This document shows positions 18,494 through 61,900 of a stretch of DNA of 64,000 nt, piece after piece (the first letter of the stretch is position 1; the number at the start of each line of letters is the position of its first letter). Source of the DNA: Tomocerus qinae (lineage: Eukaryota; Arthropoda; Collembola; Entomobryomorpha; Tomoceridae); contig CM034546.1 of NCBI GenBank assembly GCA_020055645.1, positions 63,550,001 to 63,614,000 on the forward strand, read 5' to 3'. The notes under the pieces are model-generated. The model searched no databases, had not been told where the DNA came from, and was given only the letters and a program-made list of their open reading frames with translations. Made by a program: the position numbers and the translations under genes.

Positions 18494-18690
18494 AATAAAT
18501 GGGATCAATGGAATAAACAGGGTTATTGAAATAAATGGGATCAATGGAATAAACAGGGTTATTGAAATAAATGGGATCAATGGAATAAACAGGGTTATTG
18601 AAATAAATGGTGTAAATGAAATAACCATACATGGCTTTTGAAATAAATGGGGTTATTGAAATACATGGGGTTATTGAAATAAATAGGGTT
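18494..18690. repeat. Tandem GAAATAAACAGGGTTATT repeat, right side
   Basis: Continuation of the array at 16910-17195, with the same GGATCAATGGAATAAACAGG units, then a transition through GGGGTTATTGAAATA variants into the 18-bp satellite that follows. Confidence 0.8.
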
Positions 18691-27894: not shown

Positions 27895-28215
27895 TATTAA
27901 ATCCCCATGCTAAGTCCCATGTTAAATCCCAATGGTTAGTCCCATGTTAAATCCCCATGCTAAGCCCCATGTTAAATCCCCATGCTAAGTCCCATGTTAA
28001 ATCCCCATGCTAAGTCCCATGTTAAATCCCCATGCTAAGTCCCATGTTAAATCCCCATACTAAGTCCCATGTTAAATCCCCATGCTAAGTCCCATGTTAA
28101 ATCCCCATGCTAAGTCCCATGCTAAATCCCCATGTTAAGTCCCATGTTAAATCCCCATGCTAAGTCCCATGTTAAATCCCCATGCTAAGTCCCATGTTAA
28201 ATCCCCATGCTAAGT
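27895..28215. repeat. 25-bp tandem array, forward
   Basis: About thirteen units of CCATGTTAAATCCCCATGC then TAAGTC. Occasional swaps of GTTAA and GCTAA. The mirrored array follows at 28294-28672. Confidence 0.9.
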
Positions 28216-28221
28216 CCCATC

Positions 28222-28293
28222 CTAAGCCCTAACCTAATTTAACCTAACCCTAACCTAACCTAACCTAACCCAACCTAACCTAACCTAACCTAT
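28222..28293. repeat. Interstitial CCTAA (arthropod telomere-type) repeats
   Basis: About a dozen CCTAA units, some degenerate, lie at the centre between the two mirrored 25-bp arrays. CCTAA is the complement of TTAGG, the common arthropod telomere unit. The run is short and imperfect, and similar AACCTAACCT strings occur at 53700-54200 and 56880-56970, so it may be simply a common simple repeat. Confidence 0.7.
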
Positions 28294-28672
28294 CCATTGG
28301 GACTTAACATGGGACTTAGCATGGCACTTAGCATGGGACGGACTTAGCACGGGACTTAGCACGGGACTTAGCATGGGACTTAGCACGGGACTTAGCATGG
28401 GACTTAGCATGGGGATTTAACATGGGACTTAGCATGGGGATTTAACATGGGACTTAGCATGGGGATTTAACATAGGACTTTGCATGGGGATTTAACATGG
28501 GACTTAGCATGGGGATTTAACATGGGACTTAGCATGGGGATTTAACATGGGACTTAGCATGGGGATTTAACATGGGACTTAGCATGGGGATTTAACATGG
28601 GACTTAGCATGGGGATTTAACATGGGACTTAGCATGGGGATTTAACATGGGACTTAGCATGGGGATTTAACA
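28294..28672. repeat. 25-bp tandem array, reverse
   Basis: About fourteen units of GACTTAGCATGGGGATTTAA then CATGG, the reverse complement of the array at 27895-28215. The stretch nearest the centre is a variant lacking the GGGGATTTAA half. Confidence 0.9.
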
Positions 28673-29208
28673 TAGGAGACGGTTATAGTATGTATGTGAT
28701 GGCCCTTCTGAGGGCCAGTACATTGATTGGGAAAGGGATTGATGGAAGTTAACGAGCTCATCGATAAGCTCGGACTATACACGGAAGCTCCTCCCACTTG
28801 GTGCCAGCTATCCATAGGGCCACTTGCCATGGGGCCAGGTGTCCGGGGGGCCAGTTTCCATGGGGCCATCTCGCCGGACACGGTCAATACCTATATAATG
28901 CAATTCCAGTTCTGGTCAATCAACCTCTAGTTATTCCTTTTTAGTTCATAGATCTTTACCCCTTGATCACAGATATCAAGTATATGGTATTTTTGGAACC
29001 AGGAGATTAAGCCCTTTCGATTGATATGCTACACGTAGGGGGTTGTGAGGAAATGACATGTCGACCTTTGACCCCGTTTATCTCGTAAAGGGACAACATT
29101 CAGAGCAAATCCAGTTTCACTTTTGACCTCCATACAAGTGTCAACATTGTACATGAATATGAGAATATTCCCTCGGAGCCCACGGGGAACTCACTTTGTG
29201 CCATATCC

Positions 29209-36140: not shown

Positions 36141-38182
36141 GAAGACAGTTGTAACGATATAGATTTAAGTATAATTATCACCACTAACTCTAAGAAGAAG
36201 AAAAAATGTCGTAAATTTATTAACATGTGTAAGGTTTTTAAATTAAGACAATATCCTAATAGGAAAAGGATTAATTTATATTATAAACTTTACAATGATG
36301 TAATTAGTAAGCAAAATCAAAATTCAGTACACAATTTAACCAGAGATAAAATTCCACTACCATTTGAGATAAAAACGTTGTTATATTTAGGAATGAAATT
36401 CAGTTTTACTCTTTCGCCTAATCCTAAGAATTTGATTATGAGTTTTAATGAAGGAATGAGAAAGATAGCTTGGTTTGTATACTTTTTAATAAACCAAAAT
36501 GTTCATTAAATAATATTGAAAAACTTGTACATAGTTTTAAGAAAAGTAAAACTGGATACAACAAAGTACACTCTTCTATAGAACCCTTAATTTTTAATGA
36601 ACCAAAAGACTCATGTGACAACTTTATGAAAAGAATAAAGGCTAATACTACAACAAATAAATTAATTTCTAAAGAATTTTTGGAGTCATTTAAAAACATT
36701 CAATCGGAAAAAAATATTATTATAAAATCTGCGGATAAAAACGCTGGTATTTGTATTATGGATAGGGTTGATTATGATAAAGAAATCCTCAAGCAGTTAA
36801 ATAATTTAGAAGTATATCTGCCTTCAACTAAAGCGCATTTTATTTATGAAATGGAATCAATGATTGATGAAATTAAAAGCTACAAGTTTCCACCTGAATT
36901 AAAAGTTAAAGATTTAATAGACACAAACTATGAACCTGCTATGTTTCATGGTTTACCAAAAGTACACAAAGATTTTAAAACGTTCCCACCTGTTAGACCA
37001 ATAAGTAGTAACGTTAAATGTGGTAATAGAAATTATAGCAAATTAGTGGATATAACTTTGCAACCAGTAATGAATCTACTTCCAGAAGTAATAATAGATA
37101 CAACACATTTCATTTTACGGTTAAGTCAAGTTAAATTAAACCCCAACCGAAAGTATGTACTTGTAACAGCAGATATAGAATCTTTGTATCCTAATTTACC
37201 AATTATTACTTGTAAACATCAATGTTTAGCAGCGTATGAAGAAAACAGGCACTTGTTAAATGATAATGTACCATTATCAACTAAACAATTGGAAAAACTG
37301 TTAAATTGGACTTATAGCTATGTAGAATTCAATAATTTATATTATAAACAACACAAAGGAATTCCAATGGGTTCAAGTGCTAGTGTAGTCATTGCTAATA
37401 TAACTGTATCAAGGGAACTACAACCAAACTTTCATAACAAACCTGAAGTAGCATTTAATGTACGCTTTATTGACGACATATTTTTGATCATAGATGTTAC
37501 AGAAATTATTGATGTTAATAATTACATTAATACTATGTTAAAACATAATTTCTTAACCTTTACCTATAATATTAATGACAAAACTGTGAATTTTCTAGAT
37601 TTAACTGTAAATATAAATGATAATAATGAACTTAGTACAAGTATTTTCAGAAAACCTATGAGCAAGCACCAATACTTACACTACCTTTCTAATCACCCTT
37701 TTCATGTAAAACAATCCCTACCATTCTCTGCTGGTATCAGAATTATAAGATGTACATCAAATGAAGACGCTGCAAAAATTGAAATCAAAAATGAACTTGA
37801 GAAATTTATACCAAGAGGCTATCCAAATAGTTTAATAGAAAATAGCATTGATAAGCTAAGTAAAATAACAAGATACGAAATTTTAAGGCCTAAGAAAAAA
37901 ATGCTTATTACTAATTTGTATTTACATACACCAGAGGTTTTAAACCAATATAATGTTAGTATTTCTGAGGTATTTAATAATGCAATTAACACGGGTAACA
38001 AAATCTTTCTAGTTTTACCATTCTACAAAAATATAAACAATTTGGGGAAAATCTTTAATGAACAATTAATTGAGGCGATGAAACAATGTATAGACAATAG
38101 ATTTCTGCAGATTTTAGACAACCTAAGTATCTCTCTGGCCTTTTGTAAGACTAATTCACTAAATCAATATTTCCTAAAATAA
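36141..38182 (+). pseudogene. Penelope-like reverse transcriptase, one frameshift
   Basis: Coding similarity starts near 36141 (DSCNDIDLS ... KKKKKCRKFIN), passes the ATG at 36225 and breaks near 36490-36505. It then continues to 38182 in a frame that is 570 codons long. RT hallmarks include FHGLPKVHKDFKTFPPVRPI, TADIESLYPNLP (motif A), KGIPMGSSASV (motif B), RFIDDIFLI (motif C, catalytic DD), NFLDLTV and SNHPFHVKQSLPFSAG. This matches the copy at 46896-48836 throughout at moderate identity. No GIY-YIG domain follows and no N-terminal ORF precedes, so it is 5'-truncated. A 14-bp inverted pair (AATTGCCATTAGAG near 36127, CTCTAATGGCAATT near 38357) brackets it. Confidence 0.85.
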
Positions 38183-39905: not shown

Positions 39906-40600
39906 TTGTATGTATGTATGTATGTATTGCATTTATTCAGGAAGAGTTACAGGCAACTTTGCAGTTGGAAGAGAACCCAGAAATACATATAGAATATAAA
40001 AGTGGTCAAGTGTCAACTAAACTTATTTTGTAAATACTATACCATTATTGTAGGATATTACATTTTGGTTGTATAACCTGTTTAATTCATTGACAATTTT
40101 CGGGACTGTTGACTCTTCATATCTCTTTTTAATTGAGGATTTGTACGGCTGTAACAGAATTTTTTTTGAGTGTCTTGTCTGCCTCCTCTCACCGGAATTG
40201 TAAAAATCTGGCAACATTGTTCTAAATCTCTCAGAATTTAATAACTGTATGCCAAATTTTTTGAGGAGGTTGGATCTACGTTGTTCTAATTTTTCTATTT
40301 TTAATTCTATACACCATTGATCATACTCTGATTCGGCAATTTTACATCCAATTATCACCGACATTGCTCTCTTCTGTACACTCTCTAACTTGTTACATAA
40401 GGTTTTAGACAGTGCTGGGCCCCATACGACATTTGCGTACTCTAAAATTGGTCTAATGTAACACTTGTATGCCTGTACTAACTCTGGTTTATCAAATCCA
40501 TGTCTCTTCAAATTCTGTAGTATGAACATTTTTGCAGAGGCTCTTTCAATTATCTCGTCGATTTGGTTGTCCCATTTAAGGTCATTTGTAATTTTGTCCG
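39906..40600 (-). mobile_element. LINE-B fragment: post-RT region to 3' tail
   Basis: On the minus strand from about 40600: ITNDLKWDNQIDEIIERASA, then the 168-codon frame at 40529-40023 with AYKCYIRPILEYANVVWGPA, NKLESVQKRAM, RRSNLLKKFGI and KKRYEESTVPKIVNELNRLY. This is the post-RT and C-terminal region of CR1/Rex-like LINEs and is intact as far as it goes. It ends in AT-rich 3' UTR and a TACA tail (TGTATGTATGTATGTATT on the + strand at 39909-39926). It is 5'-truncated and lies between two pieces of LINE-A. The part from 40388 upstream is repeated at 50999-51210. Confidence 0.75.
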
Positions 40601-40609
40601 GGCTTCAAT

Positions 40610-41127
40610 ATATTCGTAGAACAAAGATAAAAATCCGCCTTCCGATAAGGTACACAGTCTTGTTAACTTCTGTAACCAAAACTCTACCAATAATATTTAG
40701 CATCGACGCCAATGCCAACAATGAGACGTGCGGCAGTACAAATACTAACGACAGAGGATAATCCTTCCTCGAGTTCATTGTTAGTTCAAATTCTAAACCG
40801 TGGACATATACCAACATTTAGTAGTGGCCTTGGCAGGAAGGAGGTCATCGATATTACTCTTTGTTCTCCTACTTTATCTTCTCATATATCTAATTGGGAA
40901 GTTGAAGTGGAGCCTTCACTCTCTGACCATATGTACATATCCTTCCAACTAGAGTACAATACTCCTAAGCCTATACAGTATAGGAATCCAAAAAAGGCAG
41001 TAGAGGAGTTGGACCATATAGTTGATAGGCTGAATGCAATTATAACTAAATCCTTCGAAAATGCCACTCAAAGCCATCCGGAGCGGTGGCAAGCTTGTTC
41101 CTTGGTGGAACGACGAACTGACACTTC
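40610..41127 (+). mobile_element. LINE-A fragment in block X: EEP domain C-terminal half
   Basis: In two frames: IIFSIDANANNETCGSTNTN, then a frameshift near 40757, then ILNRGHIPTFSSGLGRKEVI, DITLCS and SLSDHMYISFQLE. These are the EEP endonuclease motifs DANAxN...NxRG, NRGxxPTF and SDH. The region ends VPWWNDEL-like just before the LTR insertion at 41128, and continues at 45295. Confidence 0.75.
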
Positions 41128-41480
41128 TGTAATGGTACATTGTTATTGTAGGAAAATACATAAAAATTGAAAAGGACAAAATAAGGATGTTATGTCCATT
41201 ATTTGGGACTATGGTTGTTATTGTAGGAAAATGTAAATGTTATGACCTAGAAGACGGATATAAATATACATGGAGAATGAATGCATAAGAAAAGAGAGTA
41301 TATAATAAAGACGAGCAGTAGACTCAGTAGTATGATTCGGAGTATTGGGACGTCTACACATCTTATTTTACAGCATATTCTGGCCAATTGTGGTCTAAAC
41401 CTTACGCAAAGGAACCTCACCCTTAGACAGAGCACAAAAAGGATTTTAATGATTATACGACGCCAACAAGCGCCACTACA
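41128..41480 (+). repeat. 5' LTR
   Basis: 353 bp, TG...CA. It contains TATAAATATA (41259-41268) and AATAAA (41304-41309), a plausible U3/R order for + strand transcription. The phrase TTGTTATTGTAGGAAAAT occurs twice near the start (about 41140 and 41215), a small U3 duplication. Confidence 0.9.
41259..41268 (+). promoter_or_regulatory. TATA box in the 5' LTR
   Basis: TATAAATATA, 36 bp ahead of AATAAA. The order promoter then poly(A) signal supports + strand as the transcribed strand, in agreement with the FHA frame. Confidence 0.55.
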
Positions 41481-41498
41481 TGGAGGCTCAACTAAGTT
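41481..41498 (+). other. Candidate primer binding site
   Basis: TGGAGGCTCAACTAAGTT follows the LTR with no gap. TGG is the expected complement of the CCA end of a tRNA. I cannot assign the tRNA. Confidence 0.45.
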
Positions 41499-41864
41499 TT
41501 TGCGTAACTACGACCGCAGTTCTACAATCTGTTAAGTTTTAATTTTTCGAATTTTTTTTCTTATTACTTTATTTCCTATATTTGCCACATCAGACTATAC
41601 ATTGATTTGACACTGAATCCACATACTAATTCGGATTTCCTTAATTCCGGCTGCTATTGAGGACGCGGTGGCAGGGCCCATTTTGTTTTAGTTTGCCTTC
41701 CGATGGCCCGGGGGAGCAGAGAGAGAGAGGGAGGAGAGAGTGTAGACCGGATGAATGGTTTAACGATGTTGGGTGATTCTGTTAATACACAATTTTTAGT
41801 TATCTTTTAAGAACTTTAAGCTATTTATTGAAGTGACCTTAATCAACGTAAGTTACTTACTTTA

Positions 41865-42076
41865 GCCTCGTCTTCCAGGAGAGCATCATAACCCTTTAAC
41901 ACGAGTACCAGCGTATTGTGAAATCTCAGGTGTCTCAAAACTCTTATTTCATCATCGACTACCTTTACTTTTAAATATCCTTTGGTAGCCAATTTCTGAG
42001 TTAGGATTGTTGAAAGGGGTGTCAAAGATACCCGGCATACGGGAGCGTTCGATGTGGAAGAGGAAAATCTACCCAT
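41865..42076 (-). other. Candidate antisense coding exon
   Basis: From an ATG at 42076 the minus strand is open for about 71 codons (MGRFSSSTSN ... KVKVVDDEIRVLRHLRFHNT ... YDALLEDEAK) and then meets AAA|GTAAGT, a near-consensus splice donor at about 41864. It could be the first exon of a host gene captured in antisense. I recognise no domain, and no downstream exon is evident before the LTR, so chance is possible. Confidence 0.3.
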
Positions 42077-42609
42077 TTTGTTTTGTCACACAGGGTAGGG
42101 ACTCAATATAGTAGTGATCTAGTTCGTAAACTCAAACGGAATGTGAACATACGCTTTTTAGACAATATTTTATAGTAAACCTTAAACAATCGCTTCATTT
42201 TAGAAATATTTATCTGTTAAGAGGACGCATCGAACACTTGAACAATTTCACTTTATTTTCGGCAGATATAGTATTATGAGCAGATACTTAGGGATCATTG
42301 TGAAAAATTTTATTCATTAGATAGATTTCGTCTTTTTCCCACGAACAAACATCTAAATATAAGTAGCACTGATATGAAATAGATAGGCCACTCCATTCAT
42401 AACGGGTAAAATTATTTCTGTAGAAAAAGGGAATAGATGTATATATAGTCACTCAGGCTAGAATTTTGGGCTGAAGGGAAAGGGCAGTTGTCAATCAAAA
42501 CTAATCAAGTGAACCTTCCATTTCAAGTAGAGACACAATATAATTCATTCATTCATATAGCTGCGATAATCTGAATAGTAGGTGTTAGTAAAACCCATAA
42601 GTTATCGAC

Positions 42610-42720
42610 ACTCTATGTATACGTTAGCCGACATCCTGCGTATACGTTAGCAGACATCCTTGCGTATACGTTAGCAGACATCCTGCGTATACGTTAGCAG
42701 ACATCCTGCGTTAGCCGAAT
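42610..42720. repeat. 23-bp minisatellite in the LTR element
   Basis: Four to five units of GTATACGTTAGCAGACATCC then TGC, with one shortened unit at the end. Confidence 0.8.
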
Positions 42721-43234
42721 GGCGTCATATGAGTTAGCCGACATGTTACAATACAGGCTTCTGCATACACTGATTAATACCCAACTGAATAGAGGCCCTC
42801 ATCAGTTCATGGGCATCGCTTTTGCCAAGTCTGGTCGACTTTCGGCTTTGCGTTTAGGAGTTGTCATGGGCATGGACGGACGGACATACTAACGTACGGA
42901 CAGACTGTGCGATGCTATAAACTAGTCAGGCGAGCTCAAAACGGGAACTACATTAGAAGGGTAAAAGTAGACTTGTATAAAATAGGGCGTTATGAAAAAA
43001 TGTGGGACTAGTCGCTGTAGTTACAATTTAAAGATAAGAAAAAAAAACTGGGGTATATATATATAGTTGGACGGAAAAATACGGGACTCCTAAATACGAA
43101 ATGAGAGAAGTATAGAAAAATAAGATGTACTCACTCTTTACGAGCTAGTTACATTACTATGCGGAACTACTTCAGCTATGAGTTGGTTGGTCCGTCGGGT
43201 ACAATTGATGATGAGGAAGGTACTTACTGCTGCT

Positions 43235-43550
43235 GTACAATCAGTAAAACCAGAATCCGCTGAAAGCATGTGGAGATAGTAAAACCAGAATCCGCTGAAA
43301 GCATGTGGAGAGAGAAACAATGAACTGATTGTTGTGGTGGACGCACCGATAGTACACTGCTGAAAGCATGCAGTCTAGTTAGCCAACACTACAGCTTGGT
43401 AATATAAGTACCCGAGAGGTAGTAAAACTAGAATCCGCTGAAAGCATGTGGAAAGATAACCGTTATGGCACTGCTGAAAGCATGCAGTCAAGTTAGCCAA
43501 CACTACAGGTTGGTAATGTAAGTACCCGAGACCTAAATCGAACAAAAATT
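43235..43550. repeat. Interleaved repeated blocks with CTGAAAGCATG
   Basis: CCAGAATCCGCTGAAAGCAT then GTGGAGA occurs at about 43250 and 43285, and a close variant at about 43430. A longer block, GCTGAAAGCATGCAGT then GTTAGCCAACACTACAG through AAGTACCCGAGA, occurs at about 43360-43420 and 43471-43532. They alternate, suggesting unequal exchange. Confidence 0.75.
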
Positions 43551-43830
43551 AATGTAACCAACCCACAGCTTGGAGCATGTAGTACCCAGGCATACGATTC
43601 CGAATCAGGAAGATATAAACACAACATAATATTTCATGGTCCGCAAATAAGTGTCAGGCATTATAGATAAATAACTAATTGAGAAGCGAAAAAAATAACC
43701 TTTTTTTGATATTGTGGAGTCTTATTTATAATTAGATCAACTTTCCTATAGCAAGGGAAAGACAGACGGCTTGGTGGGTATAAATGCTGGCAAGTTGACA
43801 ATAATAAAGTTCAGTCAAATACTGGCGACA

Positions 43831-44742
43831 ATGATGAATAGTTGTTCTTATGAAACCTCCTGCGCTGTTTATCAGCTCTTCCAGAAATCACCGGTTTATT
43901 TGCAGCCGAATTCTCGTTTTGTATTCGGCCGAAAATCTAAAACTATAAAAACCGTAAAAGCTGATCACTATATGTACACAGACAGTCCGGTAGTTTCAAG
44001 GGCCCATGTCATAATCAGCCACACCAAAGGAGGAATATGGATTATTCAGGACCTGAACGCATCCAATGGAACATATCTCAACCACAATCGATTACGACCA
44101 AACCAAAGACTCCCGTTAGAACATGGAGACCTCATTGGTTTAGGGGTGGACAAATCTGGCTGTTTAGACGAAGAAAACAAAGGCGACCATAGGGACCCGA
44201 GGTGCGTGTATTATAAGTTCTTAGAAAACGTCGACAAAAAGTCATGCACCACTCGAGAACAGCCGTGGGACAAGGCCATCCGGGAGGAACTATTTTCTAC
44301 TTATGAAGCTGGACACAAAATTGACTGGAGTCGAATTCAAAGACAGGAGCAGCAAGCTTTCGAACACGCTGACGACCATTTTTCAGGAGAAATAAACGGG
44401 TTTTTCAGTAAAACGGGAGATCTACAGGAACGAGGACGGAGAAGTTCATCAGTCCGTAGGCATCTCAGTCTCTCACCAGAGTTACTACGCTGTAGAGAAT
44501 CATCACTTCGACCGTCTAAGAGCTCAACACCGATCTTAAGATTTCCAAGTGGCGCTTCATTATCCGAGGGCAAACCGATGAAACCGGAAACGGCACCTTT
44601 ACAGCACCAAATACCCCTACCCGGAATCGACCCGGAGGTTATATTTATTAAGACAAGAAACGGGCTCAAGAGGAAAACGATGAGCTTTGAGACAGAACCT
44701 GACATAAAGCAACTTCGTGTCGGGAACGAGAAAACAAATTGA
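43831..44742 (+). CDS. FHA-domain protein carried by the LTR element
   Basis: The first ATG in the frame is at 43831 (ACA-ATG-ATG context), giving 303 residues; the frame is open 20 codons further upstream without an ATG. Residues about 20-105 form a forkhead-associated domain. FGRKS (32-36) supplies the conserved GR, VVSRAH (54-59) supplies the S-x-x-H, and NASNGTYLN (76-84) supplies the NG turn. These are the residues that contact phosphothreonine in known FHA domains. The remaining 200 residues are polar and low in recognisable structure. The KAIREELFSTYEAGHKIDWS segment and Ser/Arg/Pro-rich tail suggest a regulatory region. No intron is visible, which fits passage through RNA. FHA proteins usually act in nuclear phosphorylation signalling; the cellular parent cannot be named. 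The intact frame between identical LTRs implies recent capture or selection. Confidence 0.8.
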   Translation: MMNSCSYETSCAVYQLFQKSPVYLQPNSRFVFGRKSKTIKTVKADHYMYTDSPVVSRAHVIISHTKGGIWIIQDLNASNGTYLNHNRLRPNQRLPLEHGDLIGLGVDKSGCLDEENKGDHRDPRCVYYKFLENVDKKSCTTREQPWDKAIREELFSTYEAGHKIDWSRIQRQEQQAFEHADDHFSGEINGFFSKTGDLQERGRRSSSVRRHLSLSPELLRCRESSLRPSKSSTPILRFPSGASLSEGKPMKPETAPLQHQIPLPGIDPEVIFIKTRNGLKRKTMSFETEPDIKQLRVGNEKTN

Positions 44743-44937
44743 CGGACTGGTCTCATTTATATATTGTCTCATTTAGTGTGAGTTGTTTTTGTCAGTTAAG
44801 AGTAGTTTTTTTGTCATACTCCATATTGGTCAAATAGAATTGTGACATCTAAATAATCATGTTAATTTTTAATTCACTAGAATATAAGTATTATATCTTA
44901 TTTTCTTTCTGACGAAAGAAATCAGGGCGCCGGCCAG
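44743..44937 (+). other. 3' non-coding end of the LTR element
   Basis: AT-rich, ending GAAAGAAATCAGGGCGCCGG then CCAG against the 3' LTR. Only the GAAAGAAA part recalls a polypurine tract, and it is weak. Confidence 0.5.
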
Positions 44938-45290
44938 TGTAATGGTACATTGTTATTGTAGGAAAATACATAAAAATTGAAAAGGACAAAATAAGGATGT
45001 TATGTCCATTATTTGGGACTATGGTTGTTATTGTAGGAAAATGTAAATGTTATGACCTAGAAGACGGATATAAATATACATGGAGAATGAATGCATAAGA
45101 AAAGAGAGTATATAATAAAGACGAGCAGTAGACTCAGTAGTATGATTCGGAGTATTGGGACGTCTACACATCTTATTTTACAGCATATTCTGGCCAATTG
45201 TGGTCTAAACCTTACGCAAAGGAACCTCACCCTTAGACAGAGCACAAAAAGGATTTTAATGATTATACGACGCCAACAAGCGCCACTACA
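44938..45290 (+). repeat. 3' LTR
   Basis: 353 bp, indistinguishable by eye from the 5' LTR at 41128-41480. It is followed by the CTTC duplication at 45291-45294. Confidence 0.9.
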
Positions 45291-45294
45291 CTTC

Positions 45295-45800
45295 TAAAGA
45301 AAAATCTGAAATCATCCCTTAGGAAGTATAGATCTAATTTTACTGAAGATAACAAAAGTAAACTCATGGAGGGCCTTGACGAATCCATCCAAATACTACT
45401 TAACACTCACTTCCCAAATGATACAGCCATAGTGGCTTTTCCGACCGATCATTCCTTACTTGCAGATAAAGTCTCAGAAGACATAATCATAAGTGAGTTG
45501 GAAAGCAGTGACCTGTCTATGACTGTGCCTACTGATATTAATCTTGTATTGATTGGACTATTTTGACACTTGAATAAAGCTAACATAACATAACATAACA
45601 TAACATAATCAGTTTAAATAAAGTAAAAAGAGCTATTTGCACCTTTGGTCCATACAAAGCTGTTATGCTGATCATGGCCATGACAGTAATAGCACCACAA
45701 CTACTACATATTTCCGCGCCACTCTCGGATTTGGGTACATTCCTAATACATGGCGTCTAAAAAAGGTTATTTTTATACCAAAGACAAGCCAAAAGCAGCT
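45295..45800 (+). mobile_element. LINE-A fragment in block X: linker and RT start
   Basis: This continues the piece broken at 41127: LLKKNLKSSLRKYRSNFTED, then ESIQILLNTHFPNDTAIVAF, then VSEDIIISELESSDL. A run of ATAAC units (about 45577-45606) follows, then TLGFGYIPNTWRLKKVIFIP, the RT N-terminal motif also seen at 6230-6290. A deletion separates the last two parts. It is not functional. Confidence 0.7.
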
Positions 45801-46139
45801 ATCAAAAGGCAAATGCATTGTGGCCTATCTCACTGACATCTATATGGTCATCGCTTATATAATGGGTTATATTGAAAGTGGGTGTAAAACAAAGGAATTT
45901 GGCAGTTCGTACAAAGGCTTCGGCAATGCTCAACCATGTTATATATTCTTGGTATAGCTTTTTATTTCCATTGTCAATATTAATCTATTATTTTCAGGGT
46001 TAGCATTTTTATCACCTTACAATTATTATTAACCACTGTGAATGTTCAAATTACCAAGGTTCATTGTTTATATTATTGATCTATAGCCAGCTAAAGTTTA
46101 ACCTAATTTTACAATTTTCTTATCAAAAAAGTTAACCCT

Positions 46140-46270
46140 GTACCCAATGCCGTATTTAGAAATCGATTTCGGAAGGGGCAATGACGTCATACGCCTATAT
46201 GCAATAGGCATATTCGTGAAGCGCGAAAAATTTTGGCTTATTTTGCCTAAAATAGGTGAGAAATAGCCTA
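46140..46270 (+). repeat. Dispersed repeat, cut by the Penelope-like element
   Basis: AAATCGATTTCGGAAGGGGC through AAGCGCGAAAAATTTTGGCT is the family shared with 22755 (inverted) and 52590. It stops at 46270, where the retroelement begins, whereas copy B continues uninterrupted. Confidence 0.75.
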
Positions 46271-46787
46271 CTTGCAATAAATAAATAGAAAGACGACTCA
46301 GAATCCAAATTCAGCTTAATGTCACTTTTATTTAGTTCGTCTGAATGTAGGCGACCGGTTTCATAATTTTTATCAAGGCTGTTAGTTTTAAATACAATCA
46401 ATAGATAGTCAAATCCTTAATACTTATAAAATAGTCCTATTATATTAATAAATTTAAGATTTTCTAAGAATTATGTTTACATATGAATGCCATTGAAGTT
46501 TAACCTACCTGTATGCTTTTATTGCACAATATTGGTGTGTGACGTGCTATCAGTAAAAATTTTGATTCTGATTTTAACTGTAAAACCAAAAAGTAACTTA
46601 CATGCTTAAATTCACTGTGTTAGTGTTTACATGTCATTAACTCAACTTAAATTAGGATTATTAACAATTATCTATATTATTTTAAGTTAATAAAATAATT
46701 ACCTTTACATATTATGGTCTGTTACTAAAATCTTATAATTTTGTTAATTATAAATAAACAAAGTACAATTTCGTTCTTCTGTCAGAA
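46271..46787 (-). repeat. 3' pseudo-LTR of the Penelope-like element
   Basis: 517 bp matching 50491-50998 with about fifteen to twenty substitutions and small indels. Shared landmarks are GACGACTCAGAATCC, GGCGACCGGTTTCATAATTT and TTCTTCTGTCAGAA. Unlike true LTRs, the two copies are not identical, as expected when they derive from tandem or heterologous templates. Confidence 0.85.
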
Positions 46788-46895: not shown

Positions 46896-48836
46896 TTATT
46901 TTTTCAGTATCTGTCTCAATGAGTTTGTCTGTGTGTATGCTACATTGAGACTTAACGATTCAGCCCATAATTTGTACTTTTCATTTGTGCATTTACGTAA
47001 TTGTGAATACAATATTTCTTTTACAATATTTCCTATGTTTTTTATATTATTATAAAAAGGCACTAAGATAAAAATCTTATTGCCGAAATCATTATAATTA
47101 GTTGGATCTATAGTTATATTGTACTTTGAAAATATTTGTGGAGTATGAATACGTAAATTACTAATTAATAGATCTTTTTTAGGCTTTAGTATACTTTGTC
47201 TTGTAATAGTTTTGAGTTTATTTTTACTATGTTGTATTATATTATTGGGGTATCCTCTAGATTTAAATTTTTCCATTTCATTAGTTATTTGGACTTTTGC
47301 CTTTTCTTCATCTGAAAAGCATTTAATAATCCTAATGCCCGCTGAATAAGGTAAAGATCTTTTTACATGAATCGGATGATTAGATAAGAAATGTAAGTAT
47401 AAATGTTTGCTCATTGGCTTTTTGTACATTTCTGTGCTTATTTCGTTATTTGTAATGGATATATTTAGATCGAGAAAATTTACTTTTTCGTATGACCATT
47501 CATAGGTAAATGTCAGAAAATTGTGGTTAAAAAGTAATTTTAAGTACTCATCCGGATTCGGTATATTTGTTGCATCTATAATTAAAATAATATCGTCTAT
47601 AAACCGATTTCTAAATACAATTTCGTTTTTGTTTTCGAATAGCTTGCTGGTTTCACGTGATACAGTTATATTGCTAATAACGACACTAGAATTGGAACCC
47701 ATCGGGATTCCTTTGTGCTGTCGAAAATACTTATTATTAAATTCAATAAAATTATTGTCTAATGACCAGTTCAGTACATTACTTAATTCTTTAGTTGTTA
47801 TATCGAATGGTAAATTAATTAGATGTTTGTTTTCCTCGAATGCTTGAAGGCAGTGCTCTTTACATGTTTTTAGAGGTAAGTTAGGGTACAGTGATTCGAT
47901 ATCTGCCGTTACAATTATGTACTTTTTATTTTTCTCTAAAACCACTTCGTTTAGTCTTAAAATTAAATGATTAGTGTCTATAAGTACGTCTGGCATTAGG
48001 TTCATTATTGGTTGTAAAATCTTATCTGCTACCTTATCTATGTTACGGTTACAGCATTTAACAGTGCTACTTATTGGCCTTAGCATAGGAAATGTGTCGT
48101 ATTTTTTATGTACTTTAGGTAACCCATAAAAATACGCAGGTTTATAATTCTTATCAACTAATTTTTTTAAATGTAATTCATTAGGCATAGGAGTGGAATT
48201 AATTTCATCTATTAACCTTTCGGTTTTTTGTACAAAATGGGCTTCTGTAGTAGGAAAATACGTATTTACATTTTCTAGTTGTTTAAGAATTTCTGTGTCA
48301 TAATCATTTTTATACATTATAGTTAGTCCAGCATTCTTATCTGATGGTTTAATTATTATATCATTGTTTAGTTGAAAATATTTGAAAGTATTTATAAACT
48401 CTTCAGAGATAAGTAATTTAGGGCAATAGTTACATTTAATCACAGTAATAAACTTTTTAAGTATACAATTTGCGTCAGGAAATATTATATTTTCTGTAGG
48501 CGAATGAATCTTAACCTTAGATTGTTTGTTAAATTGATACCTGATATTCTCAAATGGATTTAAGGGTTTTTTTGTTTGATCACAAAAAAATGCATTCCAA
48601 CCTATTTTTCGCATGCTTTCGTTTATACATTGTTTTAATTTAAGGATATTTGGTTTTTGTGTAAAACTAAACTTAAGACCTAACCATAACAGCACTTCTA
48701 CTTCAAAAGGTAATGTTTTAATATCAGTTAAATTATGTAAAAAATTTGGCGCTGTTTTTACTTCCTTGAATAATTTAAATAATTTCGCTTTCTGTTTGGC
48801 ATCAGGCGTTTCACTTAGTTTAAATATTTTTTTCAT
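46896..48836 (-). CDS. Penelope-like reverse transcriptase
   Basis: 646 codons from the ATG at 48836, and in frame upstream to 48944. RT landmarks: FYGLPKVHKKYDTFPMLRPI (236-255), motif A TADIESLYPNLP (310-321), motif B KGIPMGSNSS (375-384), motif C RFIDDIILI (411-419) with the catalytic Asp pair, NFLDLNI (453-459), then SNHPIHVKRSLPYSAG and FKSRGYP. The GLPKxHK motif and the FLDL...SNHP...RGYP series are those of Penelope-like RTs, related to telomerase RT. The frame ends SLRQILKK with no GIY-YIG nuclease, so it resembles endonuclease-lacking members. The frame is intact and motif residues are present, so activity is possible. The 36-38 kb copy is its frameshifted relative. Confidence 0.9.
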   Translation of the reverse strand: MKKIFKLSETPDAKQKAKLFKLFKEVKTAPNFLHNLTDIKTLPFEVEVLLWLGLKFSFTQKPNILKLKQCINESMRKIGWNAFFCDQTKKPLNPFENIRYQFNKQSKVKIHSPTENIIFPDANCILKKFITVIKCNYCPKLLISEEFINTFKYFQLNNDIIIKPSDKNAGLTIMYKNDYDTEILKQLENVNTYFPTTEAHFVQKTERLIDEINSTPMPNELHLKKLVDKNYKPAYFYGLPKVHKKYDTFPMLRPISSTVKCCNRNIDKVADKILQPIMNLMPDVLIDTNHLILRLNEVVLEKNKKYIIVTADIESLYPNLPLKTCKEHCLQAFEENKHLINLPFDITTKELSNVLNWSLDNNFIEFNNKYFRQHKGIPMGSNSSVVISNITVSRETSKLFENKNEIVFRNRFIDDIILIIDATNIPNPDEYLKLLFNHNFLTFTYEWSYEKVNFLDLNISITNNEISTEMYKKPMSKHLYLHFLSNHPIHVKRSLPYSAGIRIIKCFSDEEKAKVQITNEMEKFKSRGYPNNIIQHSKNKLKTITRQSILKPKKDLLISNLRIHTPQIFSKYNITIDPTNYNDFGNKIFILVPFYNNIKNIGNIVKEILYSQLRKCTNEKYKLWAESLSLNVAYTQTNSLRQILKK

Positions 48837-48944
48837 ATTGTAGAACTTTCGGTTTCTCTTACGTTTAGATACATTGGACTTAAGATCCTTGTCATTTACA
48901 TCATTAAAATTAACATTTGGTGTGGTAACTTCAATGGCATTGTC

Positions 48945-48947
48945 CTA
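48945..48947 (-). other. In-frame UAG between ORF1 and RT
   Basis: The codons read AAC AAT TAG GAC AAT, and the 36 codons up to the RT ATG are open. Their basic end (SKRKRNRKFYN) parallels the KKKKKCRKFIN found before the corresponding ATG in the 36-38 kb copy, so the linker is coding in both. The stop may be readthrough-coupled or a recent nonsense mutation. Confidence 0.7.
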
Positions 48948-50432
48948 ATTGTTATTTAACATATTATTTTTTCTGTCATTAGCATTTGATTGTACGTTAC
49001 CTCGTATATCGTTTCTATTTGTCTGGTTATGTTCTGTTTCCTGGTAATTTCCGTCCCTGTTACCTTTTCCATAATTCATTCCTCCTTGATATTTATTGCC
49101 TATGCTATATTTATTATATCCACGAAAATGATTTCTCCCTCTTGGATTGTAGCCCCTGCGGTTATAGTTATCGTTGTGATATGTACCTTGATTTCTATTT
49201 GTTCCTCTAAACTTATTAAAATTTCCTCTCTGAAATGTATCAGTGTCTTTATAATTTGAAACTCTTTCTCTCGGCTTTAATTCTGTTTGAAAAACGAAGT
49301 CTACTTTATTGTTACCGTTATTATTTGCATGTCTGCTTGTATTCTGTTCATTTGCATATGTATTTTTATTAGGATTTGAAAGATTGGAGACTGCTAACTT
49401 TCCCTTTTTAACAAAGTTTTCAAATTCCATTTGGATTTCTGCCATATTAAATTTTACTGTTCCCGTTTCGATATTTTGACAAAAGTTATTTGCATATCTG
49501 TTATAAATGATTGGTGGTTGGTTTGGCCGCTCTCTCCTCCATAGTGGAAGACTACGTGTAATTCTGCTTTGCCTTTTCTTCCAATCTATATCTTTTATTT
49601 TAAAGGCCTTTTTGAATTCAATTTTAGATTTAATGTATCCTACGGCAAAAACATGACAGTATAAATCCGCTATTAAGTCTCGTGGTACATTTAATGACGT
49701 CAAGTGTACAAGAATAATGTTATTTACCTTAACAATTAAAAATTCTTTTTGAAATATGCTTCCTGTTAATGTAGTTGCCTGATATTGCATAGCAAATGAT
49801 TTTTTGAGATCGTATAAATTGTCAATCGTTTTCAGTGACATAGTATTATATTGAGGAATTCTGAGATCTACTTTTGGATTGAATAGTGCCACTTCATTCA
49901 TAGTGGCATTTTCAACATTATTAGTAAAGTAATCAAGTTGGAAGTAAGAAAATAGTAGTTTGATTATTGGTACATAAAAGCTTTCGGGAATCTCAAAATT
50001 ATGTTTGAAACCTAGCATTTTTTCTAGATCTACTTCCATAGGTATTATTGGAGGAAATTCTGGATTGTTCAGATAGTTGTCAATAAATTCGGTTACAAGA
50101 ATATCTTTGTCATATGATTCTACATAGTCGTGAATACAGGTTAATTTTTTAGGATCAATTCTCTCTAAATTAGCTCTTAAAGTAACAGTGTCGTATTTAG
50201 GTTTTTTGCTAGCCATTACCCGTTCTTGTGAGATTTCCATCGAAGAGTTTGAGGTTGCTTTTCTTTTCTTTTTGTCTGGAGTAGAAGTTAAAAATGGTAA
50301 GCCGATCTGACGTTGATTTTGAGGTAGTACGGTTTCATTGAGCATGCTTAATGATAGATCTTCGAGTCTTTGTGCATTTTGAGATTCGTGTTGACTATTA
50401 GCGGATGATTTGTTTGGTGGTGAATGAATCAT
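48945..50432 (-). CDS. Penelope-like element ORF1, RG/N-rich basic protein
   Basis: The frame is open from 50498, but the first ATG is at 50432 (MIHSPPNKSS), giving 495 residues. The first 80 residues are polar and include a basic DKKKRKATS stretch that could be a nuclear signal. The middle (about 90-330) looks folded, with hydrophobic segments such as FYVPIIKLLFSYFQLDYF, and a SRITRSLPLWRRERP stretch. The tail (about 380-495) is Asn/Gly/Arg/Tyr-rich with RGG-like spacing (NRRGYNPRGRNHFRGYNK), suggesting RNA binding in a gag-like role. I recognise no named family. It ends in a single UAG, after which the same frame runs straight into the RT. Confidence 0.75.
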   Translation of the reverse strand: MIHSPPNKSSANSQHESQNAQRLEDLSLSMLNETVLPQNQRQIGLPFLTSTPDKKKRKATSNSSMEISQERVMASKKPKYDTVTLRANLERIDPKKLTCIHDYVESYDKDILVTEFIDNYLNNPEFPPIIPMEVDLEKMLGFKHNFEIPESFYVPIIKLLFSYFQLDYFTNNVENATMNEVALFNPKVDLRIPQYNTMSLKTIDNLYDLKKSFAMQYQATTLTGSIFQKEFLIVKVNNIILVHLTSLNVPRDLIADLYCHVFAVGYIKSKIEFKKAFKIKDIDWKKRQSRITRSLPLWRRERPNQPPIIYNRYANNFCQNIETGTVKFNMAEIQMEFENFVKKGKLAVSNLSNPNKNTYANEQNTSRHANNNGNNKVDFVFQTELKPRERVSNYKDTDTFQRGNFNKFRGTNRNQGTYHNDNYNRRGYNPRGRNHFRGYNKYSIGNKYQGGMNYGKGNRDGNYQETEHNQTNRNDIRGNVQSNANDRKNNMLNNN

Positions 50433-50490
50433 TGTTGACCTGATTTTGGAGATTCCAGAGGAATAGCTTTGGGTGAGTCGGAAAGTAGAT

Positions 50491-50998
50491 ACTTGCAATA
50501 AATAAATAGAAAGACGACTCAGAATCCAAATTCAGCTTAATGTCACTTTTATTTAGTTCATCTGAATGTAGGCGACCGGTTTCATAATTTTTATCAAGCC
50601 TGTTAGTTTTAAATACAATCAATAAATAATCAAATCCTAAATACTTATAAAATAGTCCTATTATATTAATAAATTTAAGATTATCTAAGAATTATGTTTA
50701 CGTACGAATGCCATTGAAGTTTAACCCACCTGTATGTTTTTATTGTACTATATTGGTGTGTGACGTGCTACCAGTAAAGTATTGATTCTGATTTTAACTG
50801 TAAAACCAAAAAGTTACTTAAATTCACTGTGTTAGTGTTTACATGTCATTAACTCGATTTAAATTAGGATTATTAACAATTATCTATATTATTTTAAGTT
50901 AATAAAATAATTACCTTTACATATTATGGTCTGTTACTAAAATCTTATAATTTTGTTAATTATAAATAAACAAAGTACAATTTCGTTCTTCTGTCAGA
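50491..50998 (-). repeat. 5' pseudo-LTR of the Penelope-like element
   Basis: 508-bp direct repeat of 46271-46787. It lies upstream of ORF1 on the element strand and would hold the promoter. Its outer edge joins block X copy B. Confidence 0.85.
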
Positions 50999-52714
50999 AC
51001 TTGTTACATAAGGTTTTAGACAGTGCTGGGCCCCATACGACATTTGCGTACTCTAAAATTGGTCTAATGTAACACTTGTATGCCTGTACTAACTCTGGTT
51101 TATCAAATCCATGTCTCTTCAAATTCTGTAGTATGAACATTTTTGCAGAGGCTCTTTCAATTATCTCGTCGATTTGGTTGTCCCATTTAAGGTCATTTGT
51201 AATTTTGTCCGGGCTTCAATATATTCGTAGAACAAAGATAAAAATCCGCCTTCCGATAAGGTACACAGTCTTGTTAACTTCTGTAACCAAAACTCTACCA
51301 ATAATATTTAGCATCGACGCCAATGCCAACAATGAGACGTGCGGCAGTACAAATACTAACGACAGAGGATAATCCTTCCTCGAGTTCATTGTTAGTTCAA
51401 ATTCTAAACCGTGGACATATACCAACATTTAGTAGTGGCCTTGGCAGGAAGGAGGTCATCGATATTACTCTTTGTTCTCCTACTTTATCTTCTCATATAT
51501 CTAATTGGGAAGTTGAAGTGGAGCCTTCACTCTCTGACCATATGTACATATCCTTCCAACTAGAGTACAATACTCCTAAGCCTATACAGTATAGGAATCC
51601 AAAAAAGGCAGTAGAGGAGTTGGACCATATAGTTGATAGGCTGAATGCAATTATAACTAAATCCTTCGAAAATGCCACTCAAAGCCATCCGGAGCGGTGG
51701 CAAGCTTGTTCCTTGGTGGAACGACGAACTGACACTTCTAAAGAAAAATCTGAAATCATCCCTTAGGAAGTATAGATCTAATTTTACTGAAGATAACAAA
51801 AGTAAACTCATGGAGGGCCTTGACGAATCCATCCAAATACTACTTAACACTCACTTCCCAAATGATACAGCCATAGTGGCTTTTCCGACCGATCATTCCT
51901 TACTTGCAGATAAAGTCTCAGAAGACATAATCATAAGTGAGTTGGAAAGCAGTGACCTGTCTATGACTGTGCCTACTGATATTAATCTTGTATTGATTGG
52001 ACTATTTTGACACTTGAATAAAGCTAACATAACATAACATAACATAACATAATCAGTTTAAATAAAGTAAAAAGAGCTATTTGCACCTTTGGTCCATACA
52101 AAGCTGTTATGCTGATCATGGCCATGACAGTAATAGCACCACAACTACTACATATTTCCGCGCCACTCTCGGATTTGGGTACATTCCTAATACATGGCGT
52201 CTAAAAAAGGTTATTTTTATACCAAAGACAAGCCAAAAGCAGCTATCAAAAGGCAAATGCATTGTGGCCTATCTCACTGACATCTATATGGTCATCGCTT
52301 ATATAATGGGTTATATTGAAAGTGGGTGTAAAACAAAGGAATTTGGCAGTTCGTACAAAGGCTTCGGCAATGCTCAACCATGTTATATATTCTTGGTATA
52401 GCTTTTTATTTCCATTGTCAATATTAATCTATTATTTTCAGGGTTAGCATTTTTATCACCTTACAATTATTATTAACCACTGTGAATGTTCAAATTACCA
52501 AGGTTCATTGTTTATATTATTGATCTATAGCCAGCTAAAGTTTAACCTAATTTTACAATTTTCTTATCAAAAAAGTTAACCCTGTACCCAATGCCGTATT
52601 TAGAAATCGATTTCGGAAGGGGCAATGACGTCATACGCCTATATGCAATAGGCATATTCGTGAAGCGCGAAAAATTTTGGCTTATTTTGCCTAAAATAGG
52701 TGAGAAATAGCCTA
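50999..52714. repeat. Direct duplication block X, copy B (uninterrupted)
   Basis: 1,716 bp matching copy A without its LTR insertion. It contains the LINE-B piece (50999-51210, minus), the LINE-A endonuclease and RT-start pieces (51220-52245, plus), an ATAAC run (about 52025-52052) and the dispersed repeat. Beyond 52714 the sequence continues naturally within the dispersed repeat, so B keeps the original right flank. Confidence 0.9.
51220..52245 (+). mobile_element. LINE-A fragment in block X copy B
   Basis: Same content as 40610-41127 plus 45295-45800, uninterrupted: DANANN, NRGHIPTF and SLSDHMYI of the endonuclease, then LVPWWNDELTLLKKNLKSSL, then GFGYIPNTWRLKKVIFIP of the RT start. It keeps the endonuclease frameshift (near 51368) and the deletion before the RT. 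It shows the LTR target site intact near 51732. Confidence 0.75.
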
Positions 52715-58989: not shown

Positions 58990-61900
58990 CCACCTGACTA
59001 TTGTAGGGGCCCTATTCAAATTCCTCCGAATAATTTTAAGTTCCTCCGAATAAATTCGAGTCACTCCGAATAAATTCGAGTCACTCCGAATAAATTCGAG
59101 TCACTTCGAATAAATTCGAGTAACTTCGAATAAATTCGAGTCACTTCGAATAAATTCGAGTCACTTCGAATAAATTCGAGTCACTTCGAATAAATTCGAG
59201 TCACTTCGAATAAATTCGAGTCACTTCGAATAAATTCGAATTACACCTAATAAATTCGAGTTACTCCGAATAAATTCGAGTTACTAACGAATAAATTCGA
59301 TGTACTCGGAATAAATTCGAGTTACTCCGAAAAAATTCGAATTACTCCCGAATAAATTCGAGTTACTCCGAATAACTTCGAGTTACTTCCGAATAAATTC
59401 GAGTTACTCAGAATAAATTCGAGTTACTCTGAATAAATTCGAGTTACTCCGAATAAATTCGAGTTACTTCCGAATAAATTCGAGTTACTTCCGAATAAAT
59501 TCGAGTTACTCCGAATAAATTCGAGTTACTGCGAATAAATTCAAGTTACTCCGAATAAATTCGAGTTACTTCCGAATAATTCGAGTTACTCCGAATAAAT
59601 TCGAGTTACTTCCGAATAAATTCGAGTTACTCCGAATAAATTCGAGTTACTCCGAATAAATTCGAGTTACTCCGAATAAATTCGAGTTACTCCGAATAAA
59701 TTCGAGTTACTCCAAATAAATTCGAGTTACTCCGAATAAATTCGAGTTACTCTGAATAAATTCGAGTTACTCCGAATAAATTCGAGTCACTTCGAATAAA
59801 TTCGAGTTACTTCCGAATAAATTCTAGTTACTCCGAATAAATTCGAGTTATTCCGAATAAATTCGAGTTACTCCGAACAAATTCGAGTTACTCCGAATAA
59901 ATTCGAGTTACTCCGAATAAATTCGAGTTACTCCGAACAAATTCGAGTTACTCCGAATAAATTCGAGTTACTCCGAATAAATTCGAGTTACTCCGAATAA
60001 ATTCGAGTTACTCCGAATAAATTCGAGTTACTCCGAATAAATTCGAGTTACTCCGAATAAATTCGAGTTACTCCGAATAAATTCGAGTTACTCCGAATAA
60101 ATTCGAGTTACTCCGAATAAATTCGAGTTACTCCGAATAAATTCGAGTTACTCCGAATAAATTCGAGTTACTAATGAATAAATTCGACTTACTCCCCATA
60201 ACTTCGAGTTACTTCCGAATAAATTCGAGTTACTCTGAATAATTCGAGTTACTCCGAATAACTTCGAGTTACTTCCGAATAAATTCGAGTTACTCCGAAT
60301 AAATTCGAGTTACTCTGAATAAATTCGCGTTACTCCGAATAAATTCGAGTTACTCTGAATAAATTCGCGTTACTCCGAATAAATTCGAGTTACTCCGAAT
60401 AAATTCGAGTTACTCCGAATAAATTCGAGTTACTCCGAATAAATTCGAGTTACTCCGAATAAATTCGAGTTACTCCGAATAAATTCGAGTTACTCCGAAT
60501 AAATTCGAGTTACTCCGAATAAATTCGAGTTACTCCGAAAAAATTCGAGTTACTCCGAAAAAATTCGATATACTCCGAATAAATCGAGTATTTCCAAATA
60601 AATTCGAGTTACTCCGAAAAAATTCGATATACTCCGAATAATTCGAGTAACTCCAAATAAATTCGAGTTACTCCGAATAAATTCGAGTTACTCCGAATAA
60701 ATTCGAGTTACTCCGAAAAAATTCGAGTTACTCCGATTAAATTTGAGTTACTCCGAATAAATTCGAGTTACTCCGAATAAATTCGAGTTACTCCGAATAA
60801 ATTCGAGTTACTCCGAATAAATTCGAGTTACTCCGAATAAATTCGAGTTACTCCGAATAAATTCGAGTTACTCCGAATAAATTCGAGTTACTCCGAATAA
60901 CTTCGAGTTACTCCGAATAAATTCGAGTTACTCCGAATAAATTCGAGTTACTCCGAATAAATTCGAGTTACTCCAAATAAATTCGAGTTACTCCGAATAA
61001 ATTCGAGTTACTCCGAATAAATTCGAGTTACTCCGAATAAATTCGAGTTACTCCGAACAAATTCGAGTTACTCCGAATAAATTCGAGTTACTCCGAATAA
61101 ATTCGAGTTACTCCGAACAAATTCGAGTTACTCCGAATAAATTCGAGTTACTCCGAATAAATTCGAGTTACTCCGAATAAATTCGAGTTACTCCGAATAA
61201 ATTCGAGTTACTCCGAATAAATTCGAGTTACTCCGAATAAATTCGAGTTACTCCGAATAAATTCGAGTTACTCCGAATAAATTCGAGTTACTCCGAATAA
61301 ATTCGAGTTACTCCGAATAAATTCGAGTTACTCCGATTAAATTTGAGTTACTCCGAATAAATTCGAGTTACTCCGAATAAATTCGAGTTACTCCGAATAA
61401 ATTCGAGTTACTCCGAATAAATTCGAGTTACTCCGAATAAATTCGACTTACTCCCCATAACTTCGAGTTACTTCCGAATAAATTCGAGTTACTCTGAATA
61501 ATTCGAGTTATTCCGAATAAATTCGATATAGTCGGAATAAATTCGAGTTACTCCGAATAAATTCGAGTTACTCCCGAACAAATTCGAGTTACTCCGAATA
61601 ACTTCGAGTTACTTCCGAATAAATTCGAGTTACTCTGAATAAATTCGAGTTACTCCGAATAAATTCGAGTTACTTCCGAATAAATTCGAGTTACTTGCGA
61701 ATAAATTCGAGTTACGCCGAATAACTTCGAGTTACTTCCGAATAAGTTTGAGTTACTCCTAATAAATTCGAGTTACTTCGAATAAATTCGAGTTACTTCG
61801 AATAAATTCGAGTTACTTCGATAAAATTCGAGTTACTTCCGAATAAATTCGAGTTACTCCGATAAAATTCGAGTCACTTCGATTAAATTCGAGTTACTCC

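Follow-up and report, generated by a model that had tools for sequence, protein, structure and literature searches.

A young, low-copy LTR element of Tomocerus qinae whose only recognisable gene encodes an FHA-domain protein

The window examined here, a stretch of 64,000 nucleotides from the genome of the collembolan Tomocerus qinae (GenBank assembly GCA_020055645.1, contig CM034546.1, positions 63,550,001 to 63,614,000 of the forward strand), contains at 41128-45290 a pair of long terminal repeats (LTRs) enclosing a single recognisable gene, which encodes a protein with an FHA domain. The locus raises the question of whether this arrangement is a mobile element in its own right and, if it is, how it is copied and why it carries the gene. 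Non-autonomous LTR elements are usually viewed as parasites without coding capacity, and the genes they capture as fragments in transit. In the present case, each of the four full-length copies found keeps a complete gene of cellular type, the copies trace to several diverged sources and there is a candidate helper with open gag and pol frames. In our view, this is probably a young, low-copy, non-autonomous element mobilised in trans, which resembles the large retrotransposon derivatives (LARDs), is allied to the Ty3/gypsy lineage and carries one FHA gene kept by selection.

At 4163 bp, with an interior of 3.46 kb, the window copy forms a complete LTR insertion. Its LTRs are identical at 353 of 353 bases, and the repeat extends no further on either side. 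The TG/CA ends, the CTTC duplication, the TGG at 41481 and the TATA box followed by AATAAA, all listed in a preliminary description of the locus, are present as claimed (Table 1). That description also reported one long intact sense frame with the FHA residues GR, SxxH and NG, and an interior free of gag, protease, reverse transcriptase and integrase. Both points hold. The open reading frame (ORF) of 303 residues matches Pfam PF00498 with E=7.4e-15 (55.6 bits, cut-off 20.7), and a six-frame Pfam scan of the interior, with stops written as X, detected none of the four retroelement components. The scan returned the FHA domain, which is the sole domain of the protein above cut-off, and a sub-threshold match to Yop-YscD_cpl over the same residues. 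The tail of the protein looks low in complexity, and a single-sequence structure prediction gave a mean predicted local distance difference test score (pLDDT) of 33.8. Outside the FHA frame, no sense stop-to-stop stretch of the interior exceeds 75, 72 and 64 residues in the three frames, respectively. Rfam at its gathering thresholds gave no match in the window; a weak SNORD82 match within the element (E=0.27) lies under its gathering score.

At a distance of only 6.4 kb, in the same window, lies a duplicate of both flanks that lacks the element. As the flanks are joined there by a single CTTC, the insertion of the window copy and the 4-bp duplication of its target can be read directly from the DNA. 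The insertion is very young if the duplicate is genuine; if it results from a fault of the assembly, the duplicate probably represents the empty allele. The target holds a frame barely above the Pfam cut-off for Exo_endo_phos_2 (endonuclease-reverse transcriptase). It is present in two places that are 100% identical outside the FHA element, and a second direct repeat (94.8%) flanks a two-frame reverse transcriptase element at 46896-50531 on the minus strand, giving the order A-X-element-X-A (40387-46270 and 46269-46787 versus 50490-50999 and 50998-52714). An array of terminal-repeat elements or a false assembly duplication could account for this arrangement. The identity of the flanking duplicate over 1717 bases is what would be expected if empty and occupied alleles had been falsely joined, and it speaks to that extent for the view that the element is an assembly artefact or a degenerate relic of a single locus. 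A misplaced tandem allele would nevertheless still display an empty site, and four complete copies, scattered over two large contigs and each flanked by a 4-bp duplication of its own, refute this account of the element, which we regard as scarcely credible.

The copies emerged from an LTR search covering the 334-Mb genome, which gave 12 matching pieces and in which all 11 candidates were scored. In addition to the window copy, full-length elements are found at C2:2022054-2026311, C1:12306719-12310880 and C1:22099642-22103828 (contig and positions). The 4-bp duplications differ by copy (CTTC, AAAG, CACT and ATAT), and the LTRs within each copy show no differences (353, 352, 351 and 353 bp). A solo LTR at C1:55917249-55917603 has CATT on both flanks. 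When the whole interior was searched and 40 of 839 candidates were scored, the complete interior was found only at the four full-length places, the other matches being to a short dispersed repeat that is consequently undercounted. The LTR pair is thus not unique, the interior recurs at three other sites with duplications of their own, which together with the empty target takes the arrangement far beyond a chance occurrence, and no gag or pol was detected in the window copy, so that the proposal of a mobile LTR element with an open FHA frame as its only recognisable gene is borne out. Near C1:68.14 Mb, two further LTR-like places resemble the element LTR at 73-81%. The locus that contains them (L021, C1:68134700-68144699) was considered as an autonomous partner and rejected; no long gag- or pol-like frame is listed for the space between them, which holds the frame of a neurotransmitter-gated channel. 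The LTR-like pieces are read as separate old LTRs that do not form an element.

The residues GR, SRxH and NG are unchanged in the translations of all four copies. A comparison of nonsynonymous with synonymous divergence (dN/dS), which the preliminary description had proposed as a check for selection, gave values of 0.27-0.52 for the six pairs, with intact frames throughout and reduced nonsynonymous change; dS among the copies is 0.03-0.06, that is, 3-6% of synonymous sites. Counted once each, the changes in the ORF number 46 (18 synonymous, 28 nonsynonymous and no stops), while a simple neutral simulation expects 34.8 that are nonsynonymous or stops [P(N<=observed)=0.018, P(no stop)=0.096, joint P=0.0028]. 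For codons 45-194 P is 0.010, and for codons 1-194 it is 0.0065. Two indel events fall in the ORF stretch: an in-phase two-codon indel at 43899 and a one-base gap in the C2 copy, the latter within the first ATG of the window copy and upstream of the start codon used by the other copies. Since the LTR pairs are identical and yet the copies differ at 3-6% of synonymous sites, the differences arose in the source lineages during copying. A gene that was not needed should break over such copying, and none of the four is broken, which argues for selection. Weighing against this, of five stretches tried the FHA core by itself (codons 27-134) reaches only P=0.10 and the tail only P=0.11, and with four copies only the signal is modest. 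Purifying selection on the FHA ORF is moderately supported.

The same data bear on two other accounts of the gene. It may be a trapped cellular FHA gene that hitch-hikes in the element, is useless to it and is open only because the insertions are young. The identity of every LTR pair agrees with this, as do the near-neutral C-terminal tail [17 of 25 changes nonsynonymous, P(N<=observed)=0.30] and the fact that gene capture by LTR elements is well known, as stated in the relevant section of PMC6431247. The synonymous divergence between copies, however, implies that the source lineages have been copying for far longer than the age of the insertions, and over that time all four frames have stayed intact with nonsynonymous change reduced; we consider this account unlikely. 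Alternatively, the FHA protein may serve the host, or both host and element, with the copies kept as dispersed host genes. Intact frames and reduced nonsynonymous change would be expected here too, but the insertions are young, with identical LTRs, and one of them lies in retroelement-like sequence beside its empty duplicate. Moreover, the divergence predates the insertions, an indication that selection acted while the element was being copied rather than on fixed loci, and service to the host is in our judgement very improbable. We favour selection acting on the element itself, by which the FHA gene would be kept and its product, attached to a phosphothreonine of some host or helper protein, would probably raise the copying of the element. 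The two functional ideas of the preliminary description, that a nuclear signalling domain could be spread through the genome or that the FHA protein could direct the element to phosphorylated chromatin factors, are conjectural.

The primer-binding site indicates how copying may be started. In the window copy it reads TGGAGGCTCAA, one change from the tRNA-Pro complement TGGGGGCTCAA. Host tRNA-Pro genes end in GGTTGAGCCC (ten pattern matches, four of them exact), and ARAGORN identified tRNA-Pro(TGG) in six of the six loci submitted, of eight cut out. Six matches of tRNA-Pro type with the variant end GGTTGTGCCC lie within 33 kb at C1:135543074-135575989, and the two inspected adjoin tRNA-Ile. Self-priming through complementarity of the LTR and the primer site found no backing, there being no exact complementary run of at least 8 bases.

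A search for the junction of LTR end and primer site (<=3 mismatches) gave ten matches, compared with three for a reversed-pattern control. These comprise the four FHA copies, three members of a related lineage (C3:51297643, C1:7360899 and C1:139181687) and three others that have no repeat pair ending at the motif, although in one of the last, L040, the motif falls within a 1-kb repeat pair. With a length of 9.1 kb, the C3 element (L036) has LTRs that differ at three of 439 positions. It has an open gag frame of 734 codons, with a weak zinc-knuckle match under the Pfam cut-off, and an open pol frame of 1381 codons with reverse transcriptase, RNase H and integrase, for which the best solved relative is Ty3. 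A third frame of 245 codons follows pol (L036:1415-2152, minus strand); it is hydrophobic near its C-terminus, has no Pfam match and is perhaps an env-like or accessory protein. L036 and the FHA element have in common the first eight and last eight bases of the LTR (TGTAATGG and CCACTACA) and the primer site. Their resemblance continues at the other end, where the 16-base 3' junction motif GCCGGSCAGTGTAATG is found exactly at six places, namely the four FHA copies, L036 and the C1:139.18 element (four further places have one mismatch; reversed-pattern control, 0). The C1:139.18 element has GTAT on both sides, and the flanks of L036, ATAG and ATAA, differ by one mismatch. The three next reverse transcriptase relatives outside the L036 lineage (59-60% identical) had neither an LTR pair nor a matching primer site in the short pieces fetched.

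Two observations count against the explanation favoured here. The LTRs of the FHA element and L036 are alike mainly at their ends and in short internal stretches, and no polypurine run abuts the 3' LTR in any of the four copies; GAAAGAAATCAGGGCGCCGGCCAG precedes it in all four, with a purine-rich run about ten bases upstream. As L036 has related sequence before its 3' LTR, the entire lineage deviates from the common form of the polypurine tract. From the shared LTR ends, primer site and 3' junction, L036 is a candidate helper for the FHA element, which most likely relies on the copying machinery of a full-length relative. The LTRs would drive transcription and terminate the RNA, the unspliced full-length RNA would be packaged and copied by the Gag and Pol of the helper with priming by tRNA-Pro, and insertion would generate the 4-bp duplications.

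About 2.5 kb of the presumed transcript, with 40 ATGs, precede the FHA start codon. An intron is predicted in this leader (Table 1), and the first ATG past its acceptor is the FHA start in three of the four copies, the window copy having one ATG earlier. Translation of the FHA protein might then use a spliced RNA lacking the noncoding leader. Variability falls at the borders of the predicted intron, which is the least variable block of the element. Of its 1898 sites 43 are variable (2.27%); the corresponding counts are 29 of 362 for the leader up to the donor, 47 of 911 for the ORF and 23 of 348 for the LTR (P=8e-5 versus the LTR, 8e-5 versus the ORF and 6e-6 versus about 198 synonymous sites). 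It contains five hairpins in which the loop TGAAAGCAT is invariant. Of the seven stem pairs, four are invariant, one has changes in a single arm and two have changes in both arms, with pairing kept in 35 of 35 cells; the covariation score was reached by three of 500 shuffles, although the five hairpins represent two stem types only and hence few independent events. An exact-pattern search of the genome for the loop motif gave 27 matches, five in each FHA copy and seven single ones (reversed control, five). Large-scale folding of two repeat regions is not unusual (z of -0.87 and -1.41), and we make a claim for the small hairpins alone.

In retroviruses, a packaging signal placed in an intron keeps spliced RNA out of particles. 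By analogy, the retained intron with its conserved hairpins may be a packaging signal for the unspliced RNA. Several points count against this model. A second GTAAGT at 43518 is conserved in all four copies and the predicted first exon of the window copy holds seven ATGs, so that other splicing models are conceivable, and chance alone produces sites of this kind fairly often. The loop motif is absent from the helper-lineage loci L036, L037 and L038, and the exact pattern forms no cluster elsewhere in the genome, and a packaging signal common to element and helper is therefore not supported. The low variability of the intron could instead stem from recombination. The grouping of the copies does change along the element, with a switch near 44.45 kb, as we would expect from recombination between co-packaged RNAs. 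We accordingly offer in a tentative spirit, as possible though doubtful, a fuller scheme in which an element without a copying apparatus of its own keeps a selected FHA adaptor whose targets are phosphorylated proteins of the host or the helper, out-copies its helper and makes its FHA mRNA by splicing out a packaging intron, which would leave unspliced RNA as the sole template for copying. Such an adaptor might, for example, tether the particles or integrase of the helper or blunt the response of DNA-damage kinases.

The origin of the gene was sought by a protein search of the genome, which gave eight places, including the four element copies. Among the others, a single-exon frame at C4:4672787-4673239 provides the longest match (34% identity over residues 8-157, E=3.5e-22), and the places at C1:59848305 and C14:122921 are 30-31% identical to the element protein. 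At C1:77762693 the identity is 46% over residues 74-132 (E=3.6e-4), with a TAG inside the stretch; over the shared half it has 24 identities in 56 positions, against 22 in 61 for the C4 frame. This short open stretch with its TAG apparently reads like an exon bordered by introns. The intron-bearing parental gene that the preliminary description expected a protein search to identify was not found, as the host relatives are just 30-46% identical over part of the protein and the longest match has a single exon. With no recent donor visible, the capture is old, the donor has been lost or the gene came from elsewhere, and this, too, speaks against a recently trapped passenger. The gene would derive from a cellular FHA family; Pfam finds 25 FHA matches in the genome, the four copies included (43 candidates scored). 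Related host FHA genes or fragments were seen at L022:4245-5405 (minus strand), L023:4707-5093, L024:4862-5275 and L025:4703-4909; some of these share an N-terminal stretch of YRLF type, one is a single-exon frame and one looks split by an intron. No DNA match to the element was found near these four inspected loci, and no FHA relatives were confirmed in viral contigs.

Table 1. Features of the FHA element and its target site (positions in the window)
Feature	Position	Strand	Remarks
Target-site duplication, left, CTTC	41124..41127	+	Flank comparison; single CTTC in empty duplicate at 51735-51738
5' LTR, 353 bp	41128..41480	+	Begins TGTAATGG, ends CCACTACA; equals 3' LTR; TG/CA ends
TATA-like box TATAAATA within LTR	41259..41266	+	Found in 4/4 copies
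AATAAA within LTR	41304-41309	+	Found in 4/4 copies
Primer-binding site, tRNA-Pro	41481..41496	+	TGGAGGCTCAACTAAG in window copy; TGGGGGCTCAA in other three copies
Predicted intron, donor AAC/GTAAGT, acceptor TTTCCTATAG/	41848..43751	+	Both sites identical in 4/4 copies; candidate packaging region
Tandem 23-bp repeats in leader	42617..42711	+	Length varies among copies
Fragment of unrelated dispersed host repeat in leader	42769..42941	+	67-88% identical to listed places
Hairpin 1 of 5, loop TGAAAGCAT	43256..43274	+	
Hairpin 2 of 5	43291..43309	+	
Hairpin 3 of 5	43356..43374	+	Stem changed, pairing kept
Hairpin 4 of 5	43434..43452	+	
Hairpin 5 of 5	43470..43488	+	Stem changed, pairing kept
FHA ORF, 303 residues, intact	43831..44742	+	Open in 4/4 copies, 303-304 residues
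FHA domain, residues 31-105	43921..44145	+	Pfam PF00498; GR, SRxH, NG
Region before 3' LTR resembling same place in L036	44853..44945	+	66.7% over 99 aligned columns; junction GCCGGCCAG/TGTAATG where polypurine tract expected
3' LTR, 353 bp	44938..45290	+	Equals 5' LTR
Target-site duplication, right, CTTC	45291..45294	+	Flank comparison
Empty site, both flanks duplicated without element	50998..52714	+	Joined flanks with one CTTC match 1717/1717 bases

Elsewhere in the window, two reverse transcriptase frames at 36452-38182 and 46896-48944 are related (RVT_1, the first under the Pfam cut-off; about 67% DNA identity over 1.3 kb), and they look Penelope-like. An intact frame of 623 codons at 23603-25474 matches the AIG1-family GTPases barely above the Pfam cut-off. 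Satellite arrays occupy 59024-63997 (20-bp unit, about 247 copies) and 18651-20290 (18-bp unit, about 92 copies), and the long open frames of the latter are probably not genes. At 27897-28677 two inverted arrays of 25-bp repeats surround a (CCTAA)n tract, presumably a telomere unit of arthropod type.

The element can be compared with the recognised classes. It has the direct LTRs, TG/CA ends, 4-bp duplications and tRNA primer site of an LTR retrotransposon, while the window copy lacks the gag, protease, reverse transcriptase, RNase H and integrase of an autonomous Ty3/gypsy element (six-frame Pfam scan). At 4163 bp and with an ORF of 303 residues, it is neither short nor non-coding, as terminal-repeat retrotransposons in miniature (TRIMs) are. 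The absence of gag and pol, the retained cis signals and the several mobile copies are those of a LARD or other trans-mobilised element, and the FHA ORF, intact in all four copies, makes it a LARD-like variant and not a plain LARD. The interiors of LARDs are not necessarily coding (Kalendar et al., 2004, as cited in the passage concerned of PMC6431247). As LARDs are described there, the FHA element has in common with them an LTR pair, a primer site and a long interior without gag and pol, and would likewise be mobilised in trans; unlike them, it has one intact non-retroviral gene in which nonsynonymous change is reduced. In maize Bs1, according to the portion of PMC13317346 that deals with it, the transductions are segments of three genes, none of them full-length. 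Both elements carry cellular gene sequence between LTRs, but the FHA element has a single complete ORF and no detected remains of gag or pol.

The tapeworm ta-TRIMs and their candidate helper lennie have identical first eight LTR bases, the same tRNA primer at the same distance and 4-bp duplications, as given in the corresponding part of PMC4558846, and L036 is proposed here as a helper on much the same grounds. The ta-TRIMs are small and non-coding, whereas the FHA element has a 3.46-kb interior with an ORF, and its candidate helper has gag and pol frames that are open.

Replication-defective transforming retroviruses and murine VL30 combine an LTR, a noncoding packaging leader and one cellular gene with dependence on a helper. 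The FHA element differs from them in being genomic, allied to Ty3/gypsy and carrying an FHA gene. Its FHA domain has the GR, SRxH and NG residues of RNF8, SLMAP and other cellular FHA proteins; compared with RNF8 and SLMAP, the element protein has the FHA domain alone above the Pfam cut-off, and a tail that looks low in complexity. FHA-binding motifs have been predicted in an endogenous retroviral integrase, in the pertinent section of PMC8303831 by motif scanning only, which provides a lead for an interaction of FHA and integrase and no evidence for one here. No description of an FHA gene in an LTR element was found in the literature searched (titles and the beginnings of abstracts). The element opens the question of whether a retroelement parasite can evolve an adaptor of its own, and whether a phospho-binding module aids copying or insertion. 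It is a variant of the LARD-like elements with transduced genes, set apart from them by a complete gene that is intact in all four copies.

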